Virus record (IMG/VR): IMGVR_UViG_3300030106_006094
Coordinates: 7,859 to 37,306 of that record
Length of the DNA: 29,448 bases
Direction: 5' to 3' (one strand)
Source: a virus
Positions 22,436-29,448 of this stretch are shown in pieces. The notes below the pieces were generated by a model that searched no databases, was not told the DNA's origin, and was given only the letters and a program-made list of their open reading frames with translations. Each line of letters opens with the position of its first letter. The stretch's first letter is position 1. The position numbers and the translations under genes are program-made.

Positions 22436-22465
22436 TACAATTTAAACAACTAAACGGAGGTGCTT

Positions 22466-23698: not shown

Positions 23699-24247
23699 AT
23701 GGCAGAACAGGTAATTAAGAAAGAAACCAGAGGCCGACCTCGGGTTAGTGAGGCGACCCGACTGACCGGGAAACAGGTCAAGTTTGTTGAACTGGTTGCA
23801 ACCCGAGAAGGTCAGGACACTTTGCAGAACCTAGCAATCGAAGCTGGGTTTAGTCCGAAGGGTGCGAACACCCGAGCATACGAAATGCTCAACCCCAGGA
23901 TTTCTCCACATATATGCAAGGCGTTGCGTGAACGCAGAGAACAGCTTGCTGAAAAGTATGAAGTGACCTATGCCAGACACATTCGTGATCTTCAGAAGAT
24001 CCGTGATGATGCTCTTGCCAACGGAGCTTACTCGGCGGCAGTGCAAGCCGAAAAGGCGAGAGGGTTAGCGCAGGGTAATATCTATGTGAACAAGAGCGAG
24101 ATCCGTCATGGGTCGATTGATTCCATGAGCAAGGAACAAGTCAAAGAAGCACTAAACGAACTCAAGCGTCAGCTTGGGGAAAAGGTGGTTGTTGATGTCG
24201 AGCCAGAGCGAGTCGAGCTTCTGGAAGACGCTCAAGTGGCACATTGA
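23699..24247 (+). CDS. terS: Terminase small subunit
   Basis: 182 residues. After a basic leader (KKETRGRPRVSEATR) comes the phage small-terminase helix-turn-helix pattern, LTGKQVKFVELVA ... LAIEAGFSPKGANTRAYEML (about 22-65), then an oligomerisation helix region and an acidic tail. It recognises viral DNA and recruits the large subunit for packaging. No good ribosome site precedes the ATG. Unusually, about 5 kb of small genes separate it from the large subunit. It directly follows the repeat-rich candidate origin/packaging region. Confidence 0.85.
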   Translation: MAEQVIKKETRGRPRVSEATRLTGKQVKFVELVATREGQDTLQNLAIEAGFSPKGANTRAYEMLNPRISPHICKALRERREQLAEKYEVTYARHIRDLQKIRDDALANGAYSAAVQAEKARGLAQGNIYVNKSEIRHGSIDSMSKEQVKEALNELKRQLGEKVVVDVEPERVELLEDAQVAH

Positions 24248-24643: not shown

Positions 24644-24668
24644 TGGAAGTTAAAAAATGACTTCCATG
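24644..24668. repeat. Hairpin and inverted copy of a 20-bp repeat
   Basis: GGAAGT (24644-24649) and ACTTCC (24660-24665) form a stem. On the minus strand 24668-24649 reads CATGGAAGTCATTTTTTAAC, identical over 20 bases to 28856-28875 on the plus strand. Confidence 0.85.
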
Positions 24669-24882: not shown

Positions 24883-24910
24883 TTGACACTTCAATAGTTG
24901 TGTGTAGGAT
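24883..24910 (+). promoter_or_regulatory. Promoter with inverted repeat around -10
   Basis: Perfect TTGACA (24883-24888), 16-base spacer, TAGGAT (24905-24910). GTTGTGTG (24897-24904) and CATACAAC (24917-24924) form an imperfect inverted repeat (7 of 8) around the -10, a plausible operator. Confidence 0.65.
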
Positions 24911-24942
24911 ATCTCCCATACAACAACTAAATAGGAAGTGTT

Positions 24943-25485
24943 ATGTCACTAGAAAAAATCAGCGAGCTTATTAAAGTAGCCCGATCCGAATCTACCGAGT
25001 ACGATAACTTTGTGAAGGACGATCCGATTTCTGCCTTTCTTAGCTTGGAAGCTGCTAACAAAATCACACCTCTGGATCTTGATCGTATGATCGATAATCC
25101 CTCGGCGGCTCTTCATGATCTATTTGGGATTGGCCGACACCTAAACCCAGAAACCAAAAAGTTTGATAATTGTTTTCATCCCCGCTTTGCTAATTTTTTA
25201 ACGGTCAGGGTTGAAGTCGAGAAAAAATTCATAGCGACGGCTAGTGCTACTATTGATATTGATCCGGACGATGTTTGGAAGACTCTCGGATATTCTTTAG
25301 AAGAGGTGATCGAACACGACATGGATGTGATGCACTACGTCGATGATTATTTGCAAGAAGTGGATGAGGAAAACCACCCTTCCGGTTTGGATCTTCAAGA
25401 CCTGAAGGATCAACTGGAAGAAAATTTCGAGTATGAAATGGAGGACTTTCGTTGGGGCAATGTTGATTGGAAGGTGAAGAGGTAA
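24943..25485 (+). CDS. Hypothetical acidic protein, 180 aa
   Basis: AGGAAG lies four bases from the ATG, behind a CAACTAAA leader. Strongly acidic, particularly the C-terminal 60 residues (YVDDYLQEVDEEN, EENFEYEMEDFRWG). No recognised domain. First gene of a four-gene accessory unit. Charge pattern would suit a DNA-mimic or host-protein inhibitor, but that is speculation. Confidence 0.78.
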   Translation: MSLEKISELIKVARSESTEYDNFVKDDPISAFLSLEAANKITPLDLDRMIDNPSAALHDLFGIGRHLNPETKKFDNCFHPRFANFLTVRVEVEKKFIATASATIDIDPDDVWKTLGYSLEEVIEHDMDVMHYVDDYLQEVDEENHPSGLDLQDLKDQLEENFEYEMEDFRWGNVDWKVKR

Positions 25486-25487
25486 TT

Positions 25488-25691
25488 ATGACGCAGTACA
25501 ACGAAAACAATTCAATATCGATTGTCTGGAGCATTGAAGACGTTAAAGGGATACGGCCCGATTTAAACGATGACCAGTGCATGAAGGTTTTACGCATGGT
25601 CGAAGATAAACACGATGCAACCTTTGGCGTTAATTGGGACATGATTGAAGATTGGGCCGATCATTTGTATCCGTGGGAGGAAAGTGAATGA
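25488..25691 (+). CDS. Small conserved phage protein, 67 aa
   Basis: Start at ATG 25488 with AGAGG upstream. The pattern ISIVWSIEDVKGIRPDLND ... CMKVLRMVEDKHDATFGVNWDMIEDWADHLYP is one I recognise in short uncharacterised proteins of phages and bacteria. Acidic, helical. Overlaps the next ATG (ATGA). Confidence 0.8.
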   Translation: MTQYNENNSISIVWSIEDVKGIRPDLNDDQCMKVLRMVEDKHDATFGVNWDMIEDWADHLYPWEESE

Positions 25692-25852
25692 AAGATAAAG
25701 CAATTTGGGGCGTAACTATTGACGGGATCAAGGTAGACACGCCACTCAGAACTTATAAAGAAGCGAGGGAGCAAGCGCACTGGATCGCAAACGGTGCGCA
25801 CTCGTGGTATGGAATTGAGGTTGTTAATTTTACTGATCAGTCGGAGGGGTAA
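25688..25852 (+). CDS. Small hypothetical protein, 54 aa
   Basis: MKDKAIWGVTIDGIKVDTPL..., 54 residues with a strand-strand-helix-strand look (KEAREQAHWIANG in the helix). The ATG overlaps the preceding stop. Composition resembles small domains that regulate or bind nucleic acid, but no family is recognised. Confidence 0.68.
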   Translation: MKDKAIWGVTIDGIKVDTPLRTYKEAREQAHWIANGAHSWYGIEVVNFTDQSEG

Positions 25853-25858
25853 GCAACG

Positions 25859-26053
25859 ATGTGCAGCAACAAAGTGCTAATTGACGTGCCGAAAGGTTTG
25901 GATTATAAGACTGTTGAGTACCCTTGTGGATCGACGGGCATTTATGGACAAATGATTTTGTGCGACAAATGCGAACCGCAACGTAAAAACCGCCAAGCCT
26001 TAGCCGATGCCGACAACGCTTGGATGAAGTCTGCCGGGTGGGGAGAAATTTAA
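25859..26053 (+). CDS. Small putative zinc-ribbon protein
   Basis: 64 residues; GGAGG lies eleven bases before the ATG. Cysteines in PCGSTG (residues 22-27) and LCDKCEP (34-40) could chelate one zinc ion, as in short treble-clef or ribbon folds. The pattern PCGST ... CDKC is familiar from small phage proteins of unknown role. End of the four-gene unit; no terminator follows. Confidence 0.72.
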   Translation: MCSNKVLIDVPKGLDYKTVEYPCGSTGIYGQMILCDKCEPQRKNRQALADADNAWMKSAGWGEI

Positions 26054-26061
26054 ATCCGGGC

Positions 26062-26090
26062 TTGTTTTGGTGGGGATCTATGTATAGGAT
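26062..26090 (+). promoter_or_regulatory. Promoter with 9-bp operator-like inverted repeat
   Basis: TTGTTT (26062-26067), 17-base spacer, TAGGAT (26085-26090). GGGATCTAT (26073-26081) and ATAGATCCC (26089-26097) are a perfect inverted repeat overlapping the -10, which looks like a repressor site. The same TAGGATA...TCCCA context occurs at the 24883 promoter. Confidence 0.68.
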
Positions 26091-26120
26091 AGATCCCACA
26101 ACTAAACCGGAGACTTAAAA

Positions 26121-26834
26121 ATGACAATTGAACAAACTGTTTTTGATATGCTTACGACTTCGACGGGCACTCATATGCTCGACAGTGGCGGCGCGAATGG
26201 TCGTCACTGGCAACGTAATCAAGAGCGATCCATAGAAGATTTTTTATCTGAACCCGAGGCGGTATTGAGTACCGAGTATGATTACCCGGAAGTTACCGTT
26301 TCACTATTTCACAAGCTGACCAGCGGCGTAATCTATCTGGATGAGTTCTCGAAAGAATTTAATTCTTTGCCCTGCGATAATTGGGACGGGGATTATTACG
26401 GGACTAGCGTCGAGCAATGCGAGTGGCTAGTAAACCGGGGTTTCGATCAGGCGAACAAAGAAAAAAAGTACTATAAGGACGGTTGGAATACCTATAACTG
26501 GGAGAATAATTTTTCTCAGGTATTGCAGGGGCATGATTTGGTAAACCATGAGGACGAAGATTACGTTTTAATTCAGATCCACCAAGGTGCCGACGTGCGT
26601 GGAGGGTATACCGACGCGAAGTTGTTTCGCTTAAATGATTATGTGGAACCGTGGCGGGTGGTAGATGATCGCGCTTACTTTTCGATTGACGGTGTTAACG
26701 GTGCGACGATGTTTATTGATTGCACGGGTTCCGAATTGGAAAGTGAGGGCACTCGTTTAGATGAGGAAGATATACGCCTGATAAAAGAAAAAACGGGCGG
26801 CAATTTGATAGGCGAGATCGACAAAGATTTTTAG
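26121..26834 (+). CDS. Conserved hypothetical phage protein
   Basis: 237 residues. The N-terminal signature STGTHMLDSGGANGRHWQRN recurs in phage and plasmid proteins of unknown role, as I recall. The middle contains QCEWLVNRGF, the C-terminus is acidic. No catalytic or membrane features. The leader is CAACTAAACCGGAG; the gene has its own promoter and a strong terminator, so it is a single-gene transcription unit. Confidence 0.82.
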   Translation: MTIEQTVFDMLTTSTGTHMLDSGGANGRHWQRNQERSIEDFLSEPEAVLSTEYDYPEVTVSLFHKLTSGVIYLDEFSKEFNSLPCDNWDGDYYGTSVEQCEWLVNRGFDQANKEKKYYKDGWNTYNWENNFSQVLQGHDLVNHEDEDYVLIQIHQGADVRGGYTDAKLFRLNDYVEPWRVVDDRAYFSIDGVNGATMFIDCTGSELESEGTRLDEEDIRLIKEKTGGNLIGEIDKDF

Positions 26835-26864
26835 AACCTGGCTAAATAAAAACCTCCGTTTATG

Positions 26865-26889
26865 CCCCGCTATATGCGGGGTTTTTTTT
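26865..26889 (+). terminator. Intrinsic terminator (CCCCGC stem)
   Basis: CCCCGC-TATAT-GCGGGG followed by eight T. Just upstream, CCTCCGTTTA (26853-26862) is complementary to the TAAACGGAGG leader found before several genes. Confidence 0.93.
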
Positions 26890-26901
26890 GTCGTCTAGAT
26901 A

Positions 26902-26934
26902 TGCGATGATGCTTATCCAATCAACTAAACGGAG
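26902..26934 (+). promoter_or_regulatory. Promoter/leader module with TGCGA box
   Basis: TGCGAT (26902-26907), four bases later a TTAT core in GCTTATCC, then CAACTAAACGGAG (26922-26934). Same arrangement as at 27424 and 28233, but the TATACT -10 is degenerate here. Confidence 0.5.
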
Positions 26935-26940
26935 ACGAAA

Positions 26941-27129
26941 TTGGATTATTATATTTTGCCGAACGGCGTTAACTTACACCTAACACGATCCGACGATACT
27001 ATTTGTTTCTCAGGATCGGCCACGGGTAACCACTGGCTATCTGCAACGCAAACAACCGACGCCCGATTAAGAGAACATTGGGACGGCTACAAAAGCAACG
27101 CGCTAAAAAACTACTGGGAGAATGTATAA
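26941..27129 (+). CDS. Small hypothetical protein, TTG start
   Basis: 62 residues (MDYYILPNGVNLHLTRSDDT ...). No ATG is available; TTG at 26941 follows GGAG by six bases. Beta-rich N-terminus, helical C-terminus. Stops directly before the next ATG. Confidence 0.7.
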   Translation: MDYYILPNGVNLHLTRSDDTICFSGSATGNHWLSATQTTDARLREHWDGYKSNALKNYWENV

Positions 27130-27375
27130 ATGAGTTATGTAATTATGGCGATAGATGAAACGGGCGGCGAGTTTAACGCCGGGAACCAATCGTTTAACAC
27201 TGAGTCGGACGCCTATGAAGCTTTGTCCGAGGTGAAAGAAGGGTATCCGGAGGCGCGTCGGATCTGGGTCGAATTGTTACGAGATAAAGACTATTTTTTA
27301 TCGCAGCGATCCGATCCCGATTATTACGATGATATCGACGATTATGACGCCGATCTTATGTACCGCGAGTATTAA
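27130..27375 (+). CDS. Small acidic hypothetical protein
   Basis: 81 residues, very acidic, ending in a run of Asp/Tyr (DYYDDIDDYDADLMYREY). Starts on the base after the preceding stop. The N-terminal strand-helix-strand (SYVIMAIDETGGEFNAG) suggests a small alpha/beta fold; the Asp-rich tail would mimic DNA phosphate charge. No family recognised. Confidence 0.72.
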   Translation: MSYVIMAIDETGGEFNAGNQSFNTESDAYEALSEVKEGYPEARRIWVELLRDKDYFLSQRSDPDYYDDIDDYDADLMYREY

Positions 27376-27395
27376 CCAGCTACGATCTGAAACGA

Positions 27396-27420
27396 CCCCG
27401 CCTAGTGCGGGGTTTTTTTT
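27396..27420 (+). terminator. Intrinsic terminator (cassette copy 1)
   Basis: CCCCGC-CTAGT-GCGGGG followed by eight T; same stem as the terminators at 26865, 28205 and 28695. Confidence 0.93.
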
Positions 27421-27423
27421 GGC

Positions 27424-27466
27424 TGCGATTAGTCTTATACTGTCAGTCCAATTCAACTAAACGGAG
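27424..27466 (+). promoter_or_regulatory. Promoter/leader module (copy 1)
   Basis: TGCGA (27424-27428), -10 TATACT (27436-27441) within a 19-base block (27433-27451) repeated identically at 28242-28260, then CAACTAAACGGAG (27454-27466). No -35 consensus is present: the position is occupied by the terminator T run. Confidence 0.65.
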
Positions 27467-27472
27467 AATAAA

Positions 27473-27661
27473 TTGGAAGAAACAAAAAAATATATAGAAG
27501 TGCCGCCGCCAAGCTGGGAGACGTGCGCGAGGATCTGGGCCGCCGCGGTAGAACACGGAACCGAAAATCTAACGAGCCGCGCAGCCGCTCGCGAGGAACT
27601 GATCCGAATGGGCGCGTTATTAGACAAACTTGAAAAACAACTAAACGGAGAAACAAACTAA
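27473..27661 (+). CDS. Small hypothetical helical protein, TTG start
   Basis: 62 residues (MEETKKYIEVPPPSWETCAR ...). TTG 27473 follows GGAG by six bases, with the same leader as the TTG-started gene at 26941. Its 3' end contains another CAACTAAACGGAG (27638-27650), which provides the ribosome site for the next gene. Pattern resembles small phage proteins of roughly 60 residues with PSWE and RMGALLDKL helices; function unknown. Confidence 0.72.
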   Translation: MEETKKYIEVPPPSWETCARIWAAAVEHGTENLTSRAAAREELIRMGALLDKLEKQLNGETN

Positions 27662-28182
27662 TGAAATATGATTTTGTAATTGACTTAGGCAAACCCGAAC
27701 GAATGAACCTCCGGGCGGCTAAACTTGTTCTTGAATGGGAATACAACCCCACGCAAAACCAAAGCTATCCGGGCGTTTCCGCCGAACAACATTCGGGCGT
27801 TGAATGGTATGTTCAAGCTTGCGGATTAATCCCAGACTTCTATGCGCGAGCTATTGACGAATGGGAAACCGAAAACGGTGCGGGCTGTAACACTGACGAT
27901 CCCCGCGGGGAGAAACCCACTTTGTCCGAGATCGCCGAGCGGATGGATACGATTTATGGGTTTGGCGGTTTCCGCTCTTATTTGTGGCAGGGTAAGGTTT
28001 TGGATGATGGCACGTTTGAAGCTTTGCCTTCCGATGATGACGAACAAGACCCGCCGTTAATTCCTTATGTTCATTTAGTGCATCCGTCGGAGAGGCATTT
28101 GGAATGTTTCATTTATCCATACGGGGTTGTTACCCTCCGGGATATCAAAACCGGCGAAACCAAAACGGCGCGATTCGATTAG
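27661..28182 (+). CDS. Hypothetical protein, 173 aa
   Basis: ATG overlaps the preceding TAA (TAATG) with GGAG eleven bases upstream. Acidic, with WYVQACGLIPDFYARAID in the first half and a Pro-rich segment DDDEQDPPLIPYVHLVHPSE in the second, followed by a beta-rich end (CFIYPYGVVTLRDIKTGE). No recognised family. Last gene before a cassette terminator. Confidence 0.78.
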   Translation: MKYDFVIDLGKPERMNLRAAKLVLEWEYNPTQNQSYPGVSAEQHSGVEWYVQACGLIPDFYARAIDEWETENGAGCNTDDPRGEKPTLSEIAERMDTIYGFGGFRSYLWQGKVLDDGTFEALPSDDDEQDPPLIPYVHLVHPSERHLECFIYPYGVVTLRDIKTGETKTARFD

Positions 28183-28192
28183 ATCCCGCCGC

Positions 28193-28230
28193 CGATCCAA
28201 ACGACCCCGCCGTGCGCGGGGTTTTTTTTG
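28193..28230 (+). repeat. 38-bp terminator repeat, copy A
   Basis: Identical over 38 bases to 28683-28720. Contains the whole terminator stem and T run. Confidence 0.92.
28205..28229 (+). terminator. Intrinsic terminator (cassette copy 2)
   Basis: CCCCGC-CGTGC-GCGGGG followed by eight T. Ends the two-gene unit 27473-28182. Confidence 0.94.
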
Positions 28231-28232
28231 TC

Positions 28233-28270
28233 TGCGATCTTTCTTATACTGTCAGTCCAACTAAATGGAG
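28233..28270 (+). promoter_or_regulatory. Promoter/leader module (copy 2)
   Basis: TGCGA (28233-28237), TATACT (28245-28250) and CAACTAAATGGAG (28258-28270), with the same 12-base offset between TGCGA and TATACT as in the 27424 copy. Confidence 0.65.
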
Positions 28271-28276
28271 AAACAA

Positions 28277-28675
28277 ATGCTAATAGATAGCTTTACAAAA
28301 AAAGACTACACGCAAGACGCGGACAAGTTAGTCGCAATCAATCCCCGGTGGCAGAAACAAGTTAAGAAATGGGGCAAGGCAATGCGTTTGGTCGATTACT
28401 GGGTTGATCTCGGTTATGTAGCCGACGGTTTCGATGACAAGAAACATTACCAAGAATGTCTCGACAACGAAGAAAAGTATTGGAATCAAGTGAAAGAGAT
28501 CGAGTTTTCCTTACCGAAACGCGAGATCGAGAACGCTGCGCGACAGTTAATCGACATTGTGAACGCTCAGTTTGTGAACGATCTGGTAGACGACGCCTAC
28601 CAACGGGGTAAGTCTGACGCGAGATTGGAAGCGGAAAAATTCATCGATGACCATTTGATTGTCGTTAGGGGTTAA
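28277..28675 (+). CDS. Hypothetical protein, 132 aa
   Basis: ATG 28277 lies six bases after GGAG; an in-frame ATG at 28265 overlaps the leader and is unlikely. Helical, charged protein (KQVKKWGKAMRLVDYWVDLG ... EIENAARQLIDIVNAQF). No recognised domain. Single-gene transcription unit flanked by cassette elements. Confidence 0.78.
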   Translation: MLIDSFTKKDYTQDADKLVAINPRWQKQVKKWGKAMRLVDYWVDLGYVADGFDDKKHYQECLDNEEKYWNQVKEIEFSLPKREIENAARQLIDIVNAQFVNDLVDDAYQRGKSDARLEAEKFIDDHLIVVRG

Positions 28676-28682
28676 CCCGATT

Positions 28683-28720
28683 CGATCCAAACGACCCCGC
28701 CGTGCGCGGGGTTTTTTTTG
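28683..28720 (+). repeat. 38-bp terminator repeat, copy B
   Basis: Identical to 28193-28230, but here no promoter/leader module follows; the GC-rich island starts instead. Confidence 0.92.
28695..28719 (+). terminator. Intrinsic terminator (cassette copy 3)
   Basis: CCCCGC-CGTGC-GCGGGG followed by eight T, closing the accessory-gene region. Confidence 0.94.
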
Positions 28721-29160
28721 CCCGCCATTTAAGAGTGTAACCGGCCCCGGCCCGCCGCCCGATCCCCCCGCCAAACGTACCGCGGCCCGAGGTTTGGGAA
28801 CTGGGCGGTTCGAACCGCGATTCGCGCCCCGTGGTGGAAGTCATTTTTTAACAAACATGGAAGTCATTTTTTAACGTACACGATCCCCGGCCCGCGATCC
28901 TCCGACCCGATCCGCGCACCGATCCGATACCACGCCGGGTCATATTTTGTCAGCATGGGGGCCAGATGCCAGGTGCCACAAGACAACGCACACAAAACGG
29001 GCTCCGGGTCCCCCGGACAATCGAGGCTATCCGGGAGCCACGATCCGCGACCCGGCGGGCGCGATCCACGCGCCGCGCCGCGCTGGCTGGCGAGCGTGTA
29101 AAGGTGCAGGTTTTCCGCAAACAATCACATAAAAAATCAAACGGCTTTCACTGGTTAAAA
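28721..29160. other. GC-rich gene-free island before terminase large subunit
   Basis: Base composition is markedly more GC-rich than the rest. I see no convincing gene. It holds CGATCC at 28881, 28895, 28908, 28920, 29041 and 29062 plus GATCC at 28761, a 14-bp perfect palindrome GCGGTTCGAACCGC (28805-28818), two direct 17-base repeats (28836, 28859) and hairpins such as TCCGGG/CCCGGA and GGCTCC/GGAGCC between about 29010 and 29040. A packaging site, origin or structured RNA are all possible; none is demonstrated. Confidence 0.55.
28836..28875 (+). repeat. Direct repeat of 17 bases, period 23
   Basis: GGAAGTCATTTTTTAAC at 28836-28852 and 28859-28875. The second copy with three preceding bases is also present, inverted, at 24649-24668. 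Confidence 0.9.
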
Positions 29161-29202
29161 AAAGTGCTATTCTTAGCCCCTGAAACGCGATTAGGGACCC
29201 CT

Positions 29203-29448
29203 ATGAGCCTTAGTCTTGAAACTTTTGACGAAACACAACAATTACGCCTAGAACTGCGTCTGAAGCAGTTAGAGAAGCTTGAAGCTTGTCAGGATGAATT
29301 TATTCCATTTGTAAAAAGCATGTGGCCCGGATTCATTGCAGGGCGGCACCACTACATTATTGCCGAGAAGTTAGAAGAAATTGCGAGCGGCAAGTTAAAA
29401 CGTTTGATCATCAACATGCCTCCGCGGCACACGAAGAGTGAATTTGCA
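29203..29448 (+). CDS. terL: Terminase large subunit, N-terminal part
   Basis: 82 residues before the window ends. After a coiled N-terminal helix comes DEFIPFVKSMWPGF and then LIINMPPRHTKSEFA, with the variant Walker A PPRHTKSE at 73-80, typical of phage TerL packaging ATPases. It should power DNA translocation into the prohead and cut concatemers. The ATG has no clear ribosome site. A possible -10 (TATTCT, about 29169-29174) lies upstream. Truncated only by the window. Confidence 0.93.
   Translation, partial: MSLSLETFDETQQLRLELRLKQLEKLEACQDEFIPFVKSMWPGFIAGRHHYIIAEKLEEIASGKLKRLIINMPPRHTKSEFA

Follow-up and report, generated by a model that had tools for sequence, protein, structure and literature searches.

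The small accessory genes at 26.8-28.7 kb of this phage DNA appear, on balance, to be separated by a reused terminator-promoter-leader module, which would also serve gene exchange. In the proposed arrangement, this region is a series of short transcription units, and each module of about 75-100 nt would consist of an intrinsic terminator, a promoter and a short A-rich leader with the Shine-Dalgarno sequence GGAG. The RNA polymerase, which we infer to be that of the host, would probably halt at the hairpin and T8 and restart at a -10-like TATACT; in cassettes 2 and 3, the T tract stands where the -35 element would be expected. Owing to this stop and restart at each module, each unit would be transcribed independently of its neighbours. 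Since the same module recurs, it would supply short homologies in the form of the leader, the stem, the T tract and the -10 block. Over evolutionary time, the genes that lie from one leader to the following terminator may have been exchanged at these homologies, and stem-loop and promoter segments may have been swapped between cassettes.

The window, meaning the whole stretch of 29,448 nucleotides analysed, corresponds to positions 7859-37306 of a 37,306-base IMG/VR virus record of an uncultured phage. It contains a replication block with helicases, primase and DNA polymerase A. The cassette region sits in the 5 kb separating the small terminase subunit gene (23699-24247) from the terminase large gene, which starts at 29203. 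By DNA polymerase, the closest isolates are 023Pt_psg01, HTVC023P, DSL-LC04 and HTVC027P, with 49-55% amino-acid identity. A search of the record for a T7-type RNA polymerase gave no match, and the control search was equally without a match anywhere. Relatives were collected through protein and pattern searches, which yielded about 14 viral contigs in three clades: the window's own clade and two sister clades, L019-L022 and L028/L030/L031. The comparison contigs are metagenomic assemblies and several are partial.

The pattern CCCCGCN5GCGGGGT8 is found exactly at 26865, 27396, 28205 and 28695, as the initial annotation had described for four terminators with this stem and tail, while about 0.01 matches are expected by chance from shuffles. 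No fifth copy was found on either strand of the window with up to three mismatches allowed. The features, all on the plus strand, are terminator 1 (26864-26889, stem CCCCGC/GCGGGG with T8, from pattern match and folding), terminator 2 (27394-27420, pattern match), terminator 3 (28203-28229) and terminator 4 (28693-28719, pattern match), which has no promoter behind it. The predicted folding energy is -14.4 to -14.7 kcal/mol for each of the four, and the reported identity of the copies at 28193 and 28683 over 38 nt was confirmed. Terminator 4 closes the block and is followed by a 0.48-kb non-coding stretch and then terminase large. The close contigs have the same hairpins at the same places, with stems CCCCGC/GCGGGG or CCCCGG/CCGGGG; the stem is GCCCGC/GCGGGC in L019-L022 and GCCGGC/GCCGGC in L028, L030 and L031. 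The sixth stem pair among the relatives is C-G or G-C, the remaining pairs co-vary, and the stem is intact in 24 of the 25 alleles listed. Since the differences between the stems are paired and leave the hairpin intact, the four hairpins are very probably true terminators.

Terminators 1-3 are each followed by TGCGAT...TTAT and the CAACTAAAcGGAG leader. This order had been noted earlier and is present at all three places, except that the third leader has one mismatch and the spacing of cassette 1 differs, with TGCGAT about 12 nt past the T run versus 3 in the others. On the plus strand, the promoter-like block TGCGATGATGCTTATCC and leader CAACTAAACGGAG of cassette 1 are located at 26902-26934, the promoter block (TATACT at 27436-27441) and leader of cassette 2 at 27424-27466, and the promoter block (TATACT at 28245-28250) and leader CAACTAAATGGAG of cassette 3 at 28233-28270. 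The 28-nt promoter block at 27424 and 28233 is identical except for three free positions and has 0 occurrences in shuffles; the block TGCGATNNNTCTTATACTGTCAGTCCAA is present at these two positions, with a looser version in cassette 1. All close relatives have TATACT 15 nt past T8 in cassettes 2 and 3, so that a -35 element would fall inside the T tract. The promoter block is kept across aligned modules from eight genomes. A generic sigma-70 scan gave 16 promoter-like sites against 18.6 in shuffles, which is no excess; the promoter calls are therefore drawn from conservation only, and the cassette blocks are to be taken as putative promoters.

The leader CAACTAAACGGAG and its relaxed forms lie directly before start codons at 22447, 24924, 26099, 26922, 27454, 27638 and 28258. 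It is exact at 26922 and 27454, and the single mismatch in the copy at 28258 makes an ATG within the leader (28265); unit 3 more likely starts from the ATG at 28277. The leader is not confined to the cassettes: further copies are located at 22447 and, within unit 2, at 27638, and relaxed forms are found at 24924 and 26099.

Three units are bounded by these cassettes on the plus strand: unit 1 (26941-27375) with a 62-aa gene starting at TTG and an 81-aa gene, unit 2 (27473-28182) with a 62-aa and a 173-aa gene and the internal leader copy at 27638-27650, and unit 3 (28277-28675) with one gene of 132 aa from the ATG at 28277. The earlier suggestion that these units are insulated is supported by sequence, namely by the paired stem changes and by the -10-like block and ribosome-binding leader after terminators 1-3. 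The modules probably function as operon punctuation.

Upstream of the cassettes, operon A has a candidate promoter TTGACA-16-TAGGAT with leader AACTAAATAGGAAG (24883-24936, plus strand), which is conserved in relatives and has no terminator ahead. It is followed by four small genes with no cassettes between them (24943-26053, plus strand), and this gene content is highly variable among relatives. A second candidate promoter and its leader, with a -35-like TTGTTT, TAGGAT and AACTAAACCGGAG (26060-26112, plus strand), precede a 237-aa gene of PHROG 11344 (26121-26834, plus strand). Around the -10 of this promoter, at 26073-26097, GGGATCTAT and ATAGATCCC are the two arms of an inverted repeat of 9 bp, a possible operator. 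The 237-aa gene is related to genes of Gordonia, Mycobacterium and Erythrobacter phages, with 35-40% identity over about 170 aa among the matches listed, and to genes in five viral contigs. No relative was found among the close relatives of the window's phage, the nearest ones being in other phages.

Another repeat, GGAAGTCATTTTTTAAC, occurs at 24649-24665 on the minus strand, past the gene behind the small terminase gene, and at 28836-28852 and 28859-28875 on the plus strand, both within the non-coding stretch ahead of terminase large. Being present once inverted and twice direct, it flanks the whole accessory region with inverted copies. L010, L012, L014 and L015 share the first site, and L021 carries one copy at 288. 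The non-coding stretch itself (28720-29202) is GC-rich (0.60), is conserved in relatives and is possibly a packaging or replication site. In L019-L021 the GC-rich non-coding stretch stands before the small terminase gene instead, which indicates that the accessory block and the small-terminase pair changed order.

Cassette 1 has an additional element. The anti-leader CTCCGTTTA (26854-26862, plus strand), located before terminator 1, is the complement of TAAACGGAG in the cassette-1 leader. In the predicted fold of a read-through RNA, a 9-bp stem encloses the terminator and promoter and the Shine-Dalgarno sequence is hidden, with z = -4.2 in the window. The same predicted fold is obtained in L010, L014 and L016 (z = -3.3 to -4.1) and is weaker in L009 and L015 (z = -2.4 and -1.8). 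L018 and L024 likewise have the anti-leader arm, as does L011 with one G-U pair. The fold was not found in L012, where the arm is lost, and cassettes 2 and 3 are without the arm. By this model, the anti-leader could make the next ribosome site inaccessible in a read-through RNA. It is a doubtful extension of the same model that cassette 1 is a translational lock together with a released 3' end laid out like a 3'UTR-derived small RNA. With CTCCGTTTA hiding the leader TAAACGGAG, only RNA from the internal promoter would then be translated. The 3' end would consist of CUCCGUUUA, the hairpin and U8, with a seed complementary to the Shine-Dalgarno leaders of other units; this joint reading is equally tentative.

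The pairing of the 9-10 nt anti-leader with the leader and Shine-Dalgarno sequence, and the z values of its fold, also speak for a reading in which the hairpins are conditional, regulating upstream read-through by attenuation or antitermination while cassette 1 also locks translation of the next gene. This is improbable for the series of hairpins, in view of the missing arm in cassettes 2 and 3, its loss in L012 and the fact that no antiterminator gene was recognised. The promoter-like block after each of terminators 1-3 also means that read-through would not be needed for expression.

The initial annotation had proposed that aligning relatives would reveal gene swapping at the cassettes, and this was borne out in part: for the slot at 26.1-27.1 kb and for whole units in the two sister clades. 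The order in the close clade is 182-aa gene, terminator 1, a variable slot and 81-aa gene, terminator 2, 62-aa and 173-aa genes, terminator 3, 132-aa gene, terminator 4. The 237-aa gene replaces the 182-aa gene of all close relatives in the window only, a replacement known from this one contig. The first slot of unit 1 in the close clade holds the 62-aa gene, a 103-aa gene or neither; unit 1 also occurs with a 71/72-aa gene, which the window is without. The gene content of units 2 and 3, however, does not vary among the close relatives covering them. The order in L019 is g1 g13, terminator, g4 g12, terminator, g22, terminator, and that in L020 and L022 is g1 g13, terminator, g32, terminator. 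L028 and L030 have g1 g13, terminator, g23 g24, terminator, g34, terminator, while L031 has two cassette-bounded units, one unique and one with g22, instead of the last unit g34. The gene g22 forms a terminator-bounded unit in both L031 and L019.

In several genome pairs, the joints are located at leaders and terminators. Homology between the window and L014, L016, L009 and L018 stops at 26130, 9 bases into the gene after the 26.1-kb leader, and for L014, L016 and L018 it restarts at 26847-26849, about 15 bases ahead of terminator 1, with different genes between. Homology with L010, which is without the first gene of unit 1, stops in the leader at 26939, and homology with L016 and L011 restarts within the terminator-4 stem, at 28707. 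Between L019 and L020 it stops in the leader at L019:5752 and restarts at L019:6511, the first base of the last terminator; two units (g4 g12; g22) in one genome stand here against one unrelated gene (g32) in the other. Chimeric assembly at repeats could mimic such swaps. This is argued against by the cassettes of different genomes in the clades with whole-unit swaps, which are only about 74-88% alike, by L020 and L022, which come from different samples and agree to 99.9% across 5.5 kb, and by the recurrence of the main arrangements in several samples.

The joints themselves could also arise in another way. If the modules were mere operon punctuation, alike through a few duplicated copies and the same job, and genes were moved by illegitimate recombination, only joints that spare the promoter, ribosome site and terminator would survive, and joints would thus be found at cassettes without a causal role for these. 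Several observations are in agreement with this. Operon A (24.9-26.05 kb), which has no cassettes, is equally variable and turns over its genes at stop/start junctions, so that cassettes are not needed for gene turnover. Units 2 and 3 are stable in spite of near-identical cassettes on both sides, the clades with whole-unit swaps have the low cassette similarity given above, and none of the proteins scanned was recognised as a recombinase. The breakpoint ends, which as pairwise ends are not independent, point in both directions. Cassettes make up about 10% of the DNA and contain 35 of the 135 ends counted over all pairs, which speaks for exchange at the modules; cassettes and leaders together cover about 13% and contain 41. 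The 100 ends outside cassettes, largely at plain gene boundaries of operon A, speak against it. This explanation is nevertheless considered rather unlikely, as it is opposed by the swaps of whole cassette-bounded units in L019/L020 and L031, and by stem-loop and promoter alleles that shift between non-orthologous cassettes, which needs exchange at the modules themselves.

The stem-loop CCCCGCCTAGTGCGGGG is found at position 1 in L010 and L014 and at position 2 in the window, L010 and L012. The stem-loop CCCCGCTATATGCGGGG is found at position 1 in the window and at position 2 in L009, L011 and L015, and CCCCGCCGTGCGCGGGG at positions 3 and 4 in the window and at position 2 in L016. Terminator 3 of the window is unlike that of all relatives at this position and has the same stem-loop allele as terminator 4 of its own genome. 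L016 has the promoter segment GGGAATAGT in cassettes 1 and 2, and cassette 2 of L009, L011 and L015 has GCGATTGCT. Concerted evolution of the cassettes within genomes was considered and rejected: a permutation over the whole module gave p of 0.05 for cassettes 1-2, which is borderline, and 0.23-0.29 for the others, and was not significant. Allele sharing across positions is therefore claimed, and not homogenisation. From these alignments the cassettes appear to be swap points at some positions, not all. We infer homologous recombination, rather than selection for gene-preserving joints, as the mechanism of exchange at the modules.

The full cassette pattern has matches solely among relatives of the window's phage, with 0 matches in the genome_contigs collection of prokaryote genomes from 84,980 species. 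A second search pattern, for cassette 1, was badly spaced and had L012 as its sole match. Terminator and repeat scans found no cassettes between the terminase genes of the isolates DSL-LC04 and HTVC023P. In DSL-LC04 (L044 8999-10744), a leader ACATACAGGAGAAA is repeated before small genes between the terminase genes, without strong terminators.

It is useful to compare these cassettes with known systems. The morons of lambdoid phages are small ORFs with their own promoter and terminator and a GC content distinct from the genome (PMC1524935). The units of the window also have, by sequence, their own promoter and terminator. However, their GC content of 0.45-0.51 does not differ from that of the genome (0.467 for the window), and they consist of one or two genes with cassettes shared with neighbours, not of single inserted ORFs. 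The earlier description of these genes as moron-like thus cannot be kept in the strict sense. In cluster K mycobacteriophages, the cited portion of the source describes SAS/ESAS as a short conserved sequence reused beside the start codons of many genes and suggests it as a possible target of homologous recombination (PMC3203893). The leader of the window is likewise a short sequence reused directly upstream of many start codons. SAS/ESAS are not described there as terminator-promoter composites, and are a partial analogue by description.

The closest parallel is found in the promoter early stem-loops (PeSLs) that T4-type phages carry (Arbiol et al. 2010 and Comeau et al. 2014, Genome Biol Evol, both as cited in PMC4503421 and PMC4177764). 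As described there, PeSLs combine a promoter with a stem-loop terminator, recur between small variable genes and are credited with mediating gene shuffling. The cassettes resemble them as composites, by sequence, of a putative promoter and a stem-loop terminator between adjacent small genes. The PeSL trait of differing genes between copies is found here at the terminator-1 slot and in the L019/L020 and L028/L030/L031 clades, not in units 2 and 3. In contrast to these portrayed PeSLs, the phage is not T4-like, its 37.3 kb record having a DNA polymerase A; the cassette sequences had matches only in their own group; the cassettes hold a fixed translation leader, with the T tract overlapping the -35 position; and only some of the units vary. 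By this comparison the cassettes are a sequence-unrelated analogue of T4-type PeSLs, not a member. Exchange at promoter/stem-loop modules is, according to the same sources, already known for T4-type phages. If the proposed reading is true, insulator and swap-point modules exist beyond these phages, in three sequence-distinct versions in an uncultured group. This would suggest a general solution to the management of accessory genes, with the cassettes as practical markers by which exchangeable genes of metagenomic phages could be found.
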